Positions 51,561-53,713 of a stretch of DNA of 64,000 nucleotides are shown piece by piece. The DNA lies in contig NZ_AXAR01000001.1 in the NCBI RefSeq assembly GCF_000472905.1, forward strand, positions 204,775 through 268,774, in the 5' to 3' direction. The position numbers and the translations under genes were made by a program. The stretch's first letter is position 1. Each line of letters begins with the position of its first letter. The notes beneath the pieces are model-generated. The model searched no databases. It was not told the DNA's origin and saw only the letters and a list, made by a program, of their open reading frames with translations. The DNA is from Alicyclobacillus pomorum DSM 14955 (GTDB lineage: Bacteria; Bacillota; Bacilli; Alicyclobacillales; Alicyclobacillaceae).

Positions 51561-52184
51561 ATGCGGCGCAAATCATTGGGGAAAAAGTCTGCCGTGAAAC
51601 GGAAGAAACGCAAAGTGGACACGTCTACGTCTAAACCAGCGAAACAACAGCCAGCTGATGTATTAGAGTTCCGCGCGCGAACGCCGGACGATGACGACTA
51701 TATCGTCCAGTTGACGGAGGAGCAACTTTCTGGAGTACATCAACAAGCGTTTGGAGAAGTGTTCCCGCGCGAACAATTTCGTCGCTATCTTCAATCGGGG
51801 GCACCAACCGTGGTTGTGGAAAAAGCCAAGAAGCGAATTGGATACTATTCGTACCTTATCAATCCGGATGGAAAAATGCACATCAGCGCGATGGTCATTG
51901 AGCCCGAGTATCAGTCTGACGGCATTGGCTCCAAAGTGATGCGGCACCTCGAGGATGAAGCGAGGCGACTTGGTGCCCATACCCTGGAGGTGTTTGTACA
52001 AACCGGCAACGAAAAAAGTCTTGGATTCACGCGTAAACTCGGCTTCGTTCAGGTGTTTTACGTGACACCGACCACGATATGTTTTCAGAAGCGCTTGGAT
52101 ACACAAGTTGGCGCGGACGGACACGCACCGACGCACCCACGTGCTGTTAGTCAGCCGGCTGCTCCAGGATATCCACTCTTGTAA
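51561..52184 (+). CDS. GNAT-family N-acetyltransferase with basic N-terminal extension
   Basis: 207 residues. The first ~30 are very basic (MRRKSLGKKSAVKRKKRK), followed by a GNAT fold with acetyl-CoA loop ISAMVIEPEYQSDGIGSKVM and NEKSLGFTRKLGF. Ends in a Pro/Ala-rich tail. Acceptor unknown; the basic leader could dock on nucleic acid or ribosome. Site GAGGAGG upstream. Confidence 0.85.
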   Translation: MRRKSLGKKSAVKRKKRKVDTSTSKPAKQQPADVLEFRARTPDDDDYIVQLTEEQLSGVHQQAFGEVFPREQFRRYLQSGAPTVVVEKAKKRIGYYSYLINPDGKMHISAMVIEPEYQSDGIGSKVMRHLEDEARRLGAHTLEVFVQTGNEKSLGFTRKLGFVQVFYVTPTTICFQKRLDTQVGADGHAPTHPRAVSQPAAPGYPLL

Positions 52185-52327
52185 TGCAATGTCCCTTCCC
52201 CCTCTTCTGATGTTGCCACATCGTCTACAATAGACGGAGAGATGGTGAATCAGAAGAGGGGACACCATGCTGCATCGCCCGGACAAGCCGTTCGGGTAGA
52301 GGTGCCATGGTTCAAAAGGAGACCGCT

Positions 52328-53713
52328 GTGAAGTACAACAGATTGGGGAAAACAGAGTTGAAGGTGTCCGCTGTCGGGTTGAGTCTGGCAGACGGTTTGC
52401 CAGGTGGATCGGTGATGCCTGAACAGGGCGTCGCGGGTGGCCATACCTACGGAGGAGAGTCGTGGTTGCAGGTCGCTTTCGACAACGGGATCACGTGGTT
52501 TGACGTAGGACAGGCGGACGGTGATACCACCGCGTTTGTAAGCCAGTGGTTGCGGACTGTGAAGAGGGATGATGTGGTGCTTGCCACTCGAATCGCCGAC
52601 GACGAAGATGTGTCGAAACAGATTGACCACCAGTTGCAACTGTTAGGCACGGATTATTTGGATATTGTTCAACTGGAGTGCCCAAACGATGGGCTGTCGA
52701 CGGACGCGGAACGGGCTTTACAGGAAGCCAAGGAGAAAGGGAAAATTCGGTACGTGGGTTTGGTCGGAGACGTCGACGAAGTGATGTTCGGGCTGGTGAA
52801 CGGTGCCTTTGACGTGGTGCAAGTGGAGTACCACCTACTCAACGCGCGTGCCATGCAATTGGCCCTGCCGCTCGCGCGTCAACTCGGCGTGGGTGTGCTG
52901 ACGCGTCCTTTCCGACTAGACTTTTGTGGAGAAGGTATATATGGCGGTATCGCGGCGGGCCCAGTGGATGGTAGAAAGCGAGCAGCCCGCGTGGTCGAAG
53001 TATTGGAGAAGGACCTCGGTCGAAAAGAACCCATGGATCTGCACACCTTGGAGAAGGTGTCACTGCAGTTGGCCTGTGCCAGCGGTCTCGTTCATGGATG
53101 TCTTGTCCGCCCAACTTCGCGAGAGCACATTTGTGAGTGGGCTCGGATAACAGACCAACCGCCGCTGTCACCGAGTACGGTGGCAGCATGGCTGCGCGAG
53201 GCGGGAGGGGTTGACCAGCGGATGCGTTGCGCGTGGGCAGATGACCCCTTGTTAGCGTATTATCACGACGTCGAGTGGGGGAGACCGCCCAGAGGTGACC
53301 ATCGCTGGTTCGAGTTTGTCGTGCTGGAGACGTTTCAGGCGGGACTGAGTTGGAAGACGATTCTCCACAAGCGAAGGGCGTTTCGCCGAGCGTTCTCCGG
53401 ATTTGATATCGATAAAGTCGCTGCCTACACCGCGGCAGATGTGGAGCGGCTGATGGGTGATGCCAGTATCGTGCGTCATCGGAAGAAGATTGAAGCGGCC
53501 GTCGAGAACGCGAGGATTGCGCAGCGATTGGTTGTAGAGAGCGGATCATTGGAGCGATTCTTTCTGGACAAGGTCAAACCTGCTGCGGATCCGCTCGAGG
53601 TCATTCGCCAGACGTTTCGTTTCGTCGGAAGGACAACCGCGGAGAGTATCGCCTTTGCGACGGGTATCGTGCCGCTCCTGCACACCGCGGGCTGCTGGTT
53701 GGCGCGCTCCTGA
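52328..53713 (+). CDS. degenerate aldo/keto reductase fused to 3-methyladenine DNA glycosylase I
   Basis: 461 residues. Residues 1-295 follow the aldo/keto-reductase barrel (KYNRLGKTELKVSAVGL, LGTDYLDIVQLE, LPLARQLGVGVLTRP), but three of four catalytic residues are replaced: Asp59 kept, Tyr to Asp64, Lys to Arg88, His to Glu117. Residues 298-461 are a TAG-type glycosylase: Cys301, His313, His452 and Cys456 match the zinc ligands, and Glu334 and Trp342 the base pocket. It should excise 3-methyladenine from DNA. GTG 52328 is 6-7 nt after AAAAGGAG. The frame is continuous with no sign of a frameshift. Confidence 0.85.
   Translation: MKYNRLGKTELKVSAVGLSLADGLPGGSVMPEQGVAGGHTYGGESWLQVAFDNGITWFDVGQADGDTTAFVSQWLRTVKRDDVVLATRIADDEDVSKQIDHQLQLLGTDYLDIVQLECPNDGLSTDAERALQEAKEKGKIRYVGLVGDVDEVMFGLVNGAFDVVQVEYHLLNARAMQLALPLARQLGVGVLTRPFRLDFCGEGIYGGIAAGPVDGRKRAARVVEVLEKDLGRKEPMDLHTLEKVSLQLACASGLVHGCLVRPTSREHICEWARITDQPPLSPSTVAAWLREAGGVDQRMRCAWADDPLLAYYHDVEWGRPPRGDHRWFEFVVLETFQAGLSWKTILHKRRAFRRAFSGFDIDKVAAYTAADVERLMGDASIVRHRKKIEAAVENARIAQRLVVESGSLERFFLDKVKPAADPLEVIRQTFRFVGRTTAESIAFATGIVPLLHTAGCWLARS

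Follow-up and report, generated by a model that had tools for sequence, protein, structure and literature searches.

TAG, or 3-methyladenine DNA glycosylase I, acts in the base-excision repair of alkylated adenine and normally occurs as a minimal glycosylase with no large domain attached. In Alicyclobacillus pomorum DSM 14955, the sequence of a TAG follows, in the same reading frame, that of a barrel with the fold of an aldo/keto reductase (AKR). This arrangement raises the question of what a metabolic fold is doing at the N terminus of a DNA repair enzyme. The gene is located in a window of 64,000 nucleotides, the whole stretch of DNA that was analysed, which corresponds to positions 204775-268774 of a 474-kb contig in a 3.4-Mb genome of 36 contigs. 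The features considered here are given below in window coordinates.

51561..52184, plus strand: gene for a GNAT acetyltransferase, the conserved 5′ neighbour (Pfam, relatives' loci)
52199..52261, plus strand: leader hairpin with perfect 13-bp arms around a candidate −10 element, TCTACAAT
52328..53713, plus strand: AKR-TAG fusion gene encoding 461 amino acids (GTG start, Pfam)
52328..53197, plus strand: N-terminal (beta/alpha)8 barrel with the AKR fold, residues 1-290 (Pfam, alignments, AlphaFold2, VIA)
53198..53224, plus strand: short linker, residues 291-299 (sequence; model helix at residues 282-290)
53225..53710, plus strand: C-terminal TAG domain, residues 300-461 (Pfam, alignments, AlphaFold2, VIA)

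The reading frame and its TAG half

The open reading frame comprises 461 codons without interruption, from a GTG at 52328 to the stop at 53713, as the sequence-only reading had correctly placed it. A Shine-Dalgarno sequence, AGGAG, is located at 52317-52321, 6 nt 5′ of the GTG, and an in-frame ATG at 52307, upstream of this codon, is a possible alternative start. Two Pfam profiles match the protein above their cut-offs: PF00248 at residues 47-191 (E 4e-18) and PF03352 at residues 305-417 (E 3.3e-42; 144.8 bits against a cut-off of 25). Both the AKR half and the TAG half have a coding-type composition.

The zinc-snap motif of TAG is described in the accessible part of a review (PMC9266487). Its four ligands, which the sequence-only reading had recognized as kept in the fusion, are C301, H313, H452, and C456 and are invariant in 25 of 25 aligned rows. 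In total, 29 columns are invariant across all 25 TAG rows, and these also include E334, W342, Y312, and W317. Among these residues, E334 and W342 are the equivalents of Glu38 and Trp46 of the E. coli enzyme, and Y312 is the equivalent of Tyr16. We take these three E. coli residues, together with Tyr13, to be pocket residues. The proposal that the pocket residues are kept holds for E334, W342, and Y312 and fails for Tyr13, whose place is taken by Leu309; the short-TAG relatives also have no tyrosine there. In addition, classical TAG has a longer segment after residue 416 than the fusion and its stand-alone relatives. The short-loop TAG branch without Tyr13 consists of 53222-53710 of the window and loci L060, L062-L066, L068-L071, L083, and L086. 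The NCBIfam model TIGR00624 gives the TAG half a score of 142.3, which does not reach its cut-off of 232.5. Because this cut-off is missed and the domain belongs to the short-loop branch, we use the name 'TAG-type' for it.

An AlphaFold2 model of the TAG half has pLDDT values above 90 in most blocks of residues 301-450. Only TAG rows were supplied for this model, so its barrel half is unreliable, and the barrel was folded from a separate alignment. When compared by VIA, the TAG half matches TAG structure 2ofk with Z 21.4 and an rmsd of 2.1 Å over 160 residues. Solved TAG crystal structures reach Z 20-21, compared to 10.8 for the best non-TAG glycosylase. The fusion is the sole PF03352 match in its own genome. 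Presumably, the TAG half would remove 3-methyladenine as usual.

The barrel: predicted fold and altered active site

The AlphaFold2 model of the barrel has a mean pLDDT of 82.1 and a pTM of 0.83, and values fall below 50 only at residues 26-40 and 198-211. By VIA-align, the barrel matches AKR11C1 with Z 27.2 (rmsd 2.9, 265 residues) and SmbA with Z 27.0 (rmsd 3.1, 254 residues), where SmbA structures span Z 26.5-27.0 and many AKR structures are tied with both proteins at Z 25-27. The top Foldseek match is L-galactose dehydrogenase (E 4.5e-17), and the closest solved sequence is IolS (E 3.3e-15), followed by other AKRs. The barrel, whose fold motifs the earlier reading had found kept, is predicted to retain its fold, as judged by the model confidence and by the matches to AKR structures. 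Residues 282-290 form a helix in the barrel model that leads into TAG through about nine residues. This helix and the short linker would therefore place the barrel near the N-terminal zinc ligand of TAG.

The barrel was aligned with AKR homologues from genomes of the family and order to which the source genome belongs. The catalytic tetrad is D-Y-K-H in 13 of 13 aligned homologues, and the corresponding positions of the fusion are D59, D64, R88, and E117. The aspartate is retained as D59, and the absence of the tyrosine, lysine, and histidine agrees with what had been read from the sequence alone. In a second alignment, each of these three residues is present in 15 of 15 homologues, and all three are gone from the fusion. 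MAFFT misplaced AKR rows in five alignments, in two of them judging by its summary; four of the five support no claim made here, and the other was used for the tetrad columns alone, where it matches another alignment.

At least 13 of the 15 homologues agree in 69 AKR columns, of which the fusion keeps 32 and loses 37. Further conserved columns are replaced through S146V, P195F, G261R, T262P, and N271W, at positions that we assume to lie on the cofactor side in AKR structures. When each of the 15 homologues is scored in turn on the columns that the others conserve, three distant AKRs retain 45-49% and the remainder 80-100%. Since distant AKRs also keep 45-49%, the identity of the lost columns tells more than their number. 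Judged from its tetrad, the barrel is apparently catalytically dead, and cofactor binding has probably been lost too. In a tree, the end branch of the fusion's AKR domain is 2.5 changes per site long, where the median is 0.53. An antisense ORF, L051_2397m, was wrongly included in this tree, from which we use the branch length and not the topology. Fast divergence of the sequence is not by itself proof that the function of the barrel has been lost. The loss of the tetrad, the predicted retention of the fold, and the intact TAG domain all support the view that a pseudo-enzyme has been joined to a working type of repair domain, as the sequence-only reading had proposed.

Genomic context and distribution of the fusion

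The gene order PcrA, small ORF, GNAT, TAG is common to the loci of relatives. A GNAT match is present in 54 of 59 genomes of the order, and among the 30 GNAT loci retrieved, TAG is located directly 3′ in the window and in 12 others; the remaining 17 have no TAG within the 1.5-kb flank. No AKR similarity was found between GNAT and the stand-alone TAG in any of these 12 relatives. The TAG of Alicyclobacillus macrosporangiidus has the stand-alone form. Because relatives carry a stand-alone TAG after GNAT and no AKR, we take TAG to be the old resident of this locus and the barrel to be the addition. The sequence-only reading had raised the concern that relatives might encode two separate proteins and that the fusion might be an assembly error. 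Relatives do have a separate TAG at the locus, and neither an adjoining separate AKR nor an assembly error finds support.

In the other genome of the genus, a FapA-like gene (L090:3424-5241, PF20250 and PF03961) occupies the place of TAG after GNAT, and a classical TAG is present at another place in the genome. Both examined genomes of the genus carry a hairpin after GNAT, at 52199-52261 of the window and at about 3468-3527 of L090. The loop of this long genus hairpin holds a candidate −10 element, GTCTACAAT, its 3′ arm is SD-like, and the gene located 3′ differs between the two genomes (AKR-TAG or FapA-like). The 3′ arm of the leader hairpin in the window carries an SD-like GAGGGG, and the folding z of the whole leader is −5.6. 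The hairpin could hide a ribosome site in read-through transcripts only. Rfam yielded only sub-threshold chance matches for the leader, and no second full copy of the hairpin was found in the genome. The hairpin is followed, ahead of the fusion gene, by a possible 10-codon leader ORF at 52267-52299.

A search of the genome with the fusion protein as query returned the fusion itself as the sole match. The PF00248 profile has eight matches in this genome besides the fusion, all of which are distant from the fusion AKR. A recent duplication of a resident AKR was considered and rejected because of this distance and because no second copy was found in the genome. Elsewhere in the genome, an aldo/keto reductase gene that spans two adjacent PF00248 matches (G000:C13:39509-40373, L055/L056) is apparently broken.

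The earlier reading had called for a search for other AKR-TAG architectures. Among the matches listed, no second fusion was found in 41 family genomes, in 398 class genomes, or in 398 phylum genomes (matches with E up to 1e-32 only in the phylum search), where the class and phylum searches scored at most four candidates per genome and all genomes sampled belong to the window's own phylum. A scan of contigs by exact peptide patterns matched two relatives, in the TAG half only. Likewise, none of 213 matching plasmid records covers 80% of the fusion, and plasmid matches of the AKR part alone are ordinary AKRs (25-31% in the best 8 of 133). No AKR-glycosylase fusion was found among the titles and abstract starts of the open-licence literature, and the text searched of the glycosylase review (PMC9266487) does not mention an AKR barrel. 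The fusion is therefore a singleton in the genomes and plasmids searched and, as far as this search extends, is lineage-specific. Its architecture is new, its parts are known, and its reach is modest.

Possible roles of the barrel and comparison with known systems

We consider it fairly probable that this lineage-specific fusion joins an ordinary TAG to a non-catalytic AKR barrel that serves as an accessory domain for docking or stabilization. An AKR-derived segment would have come in frame 5′ of the resident TAG gene, and the barrel would then have diverged rapidly with its fold retained. It may now act as a non-catalytic accessory domain that stabilizes the enzyme or docks a partner; recruitment of partners had also been suggested in the sequence-only reading. 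With a single fusion sequence, selection acting on the barrel is conjectural, and this singleton may equally be a neutral accident.

The main rival is that the barrel is a decaying remnant carried as a passenger, with a free TAG made from an internal start as the working product, which seems to us rather unlikely. Met299 (ATG at 53222) is a possible internal start immediately before the conserved RC of TAG, and an SD-like stretch, GGGAGGGG, is located at 53203-53210, 11 nt upstream. Together these elements could give a free TAG, which would make the barrel dispensable. The loss of 37 of the 69 conserved AKR columns and the stand-alone TAG of 12 relatives are also consistent with a passenger. 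However, no stop interrupts the 298 codons before Met299 despite very deep divergence, compared to a mean of 9.4 stops in shuffles within codon positions, only 1 of 20000 of which remained open. In addition, the predicted barrel is complete, and a good Shine-Dalgarno sequence precedes the GTG at 52328. A further rival is an artefact of assembly or sequencing that joined two genes, and the fact that the fusion is a singleton in the genomes searched could be read in this way. Yet the gene is located inside the 474-kb contig and adjoins its ancestral neighbours, both halves have coding-type composition, and a second copy of the fusion AKR was not found in the genome. An assembly error is unlikely, and we give the artefact as a whole hardly any credence.

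Two other accounts assign a sensory role to the barrel. In one, the dead site formed by D59, D64, R88, and E117 might bind a nucleotide messenger or other small molecule, and the helix that runs directly into TAG might transmit this signal and change TAG activity. Alkylation repair would then be conditional on the state of the cell. SmbA structures are among the top matches of the barrel (Z 26.5-27.0 compared to 27.2 for AKR11C1), and SmbA, according to the accessible part of PMC9944927, is an AKR-fold switch with a moving C-terminal helix. However, SmbA is tied with many AKRs, so the structural match is not specific, and the RxxD motif described for SmbA loop 7 in the same portion of that paper is absent from residues 193-213 of the fusion. 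Both the binding of such a ligand at the dead site and the gating of repair by it strike us as improbable. The other account, proposed in the sequence-only reading, is that NAD(P)H binding persists in the barrel and couples redox state to alkylation repair. The AKR fold and D59 are retained, but the catalytic lysine is now an arginine (R88) and S146V, P195F, G261R, T262P, and N271W replace conserved columns. With these cofactor-side columns lost, the proposal of NAD(P)H sensing loses support, and we regard it as very improbable.

If the barrel is folded but inactive, as the preferred account of an accessory domain would have it, this protein would be a natural example of the conversion of an enzyme into an accessory domain. 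It also makes it possible to ask directly by experiment whether a metabolic fold can tune base-excision repair.

The fusion shares with known TAGs (E. coli 1lmz and 1nku, 2ofk, and S. aureus 4aia) the PF03352 domain, the zinc-snap ligands, the equivalents of Glu38 and Trp46, and the fold. It differs from them in the shorter segment after residue 416, in the leucine that replaces Tyr13, and in the 290-residue N-terminal barrel. With the IolS/AKR11 and Kv-beta AKRs and the homologues from the family and order, it has in common the barrel fold and many structural glycines, and its identity to the 15 AKR homologues is 23-30%. Unlike the IolS/AKR11 and Kv-beta AKRs, its barrel lacks the tetrad Tyr, Lys, and His and the cofactor-side residues. 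SmbA of Caulobacter crescentus, for which the accessible part of PMC9944927 describes an AKR-like barrel that serves as a c-di-GMP/ppGpp switch via helix 9, is matched by the predicted structure of the fusion barrel (Z 27.0, tied with many AKRs), and the helix at residues 282-290 may be a counterpart of its C-terminal helix. In contrast, SmbA has no glycosylase and the fusion has no RxxD; no sequence relation was found between the two, and SmbA was compared by structure and published motif. A further precedent is mycobacterial MsTAG, which binds ParA, as stated in the portion of PMC3366916 consulted. In the accessible text of PMC9266487, the sole extra feature of TAG is the zinc snap, and other DNA glycosylases there have non-catalytic domains, so that an accessory domain is appended to the enzyme as in the fusion.
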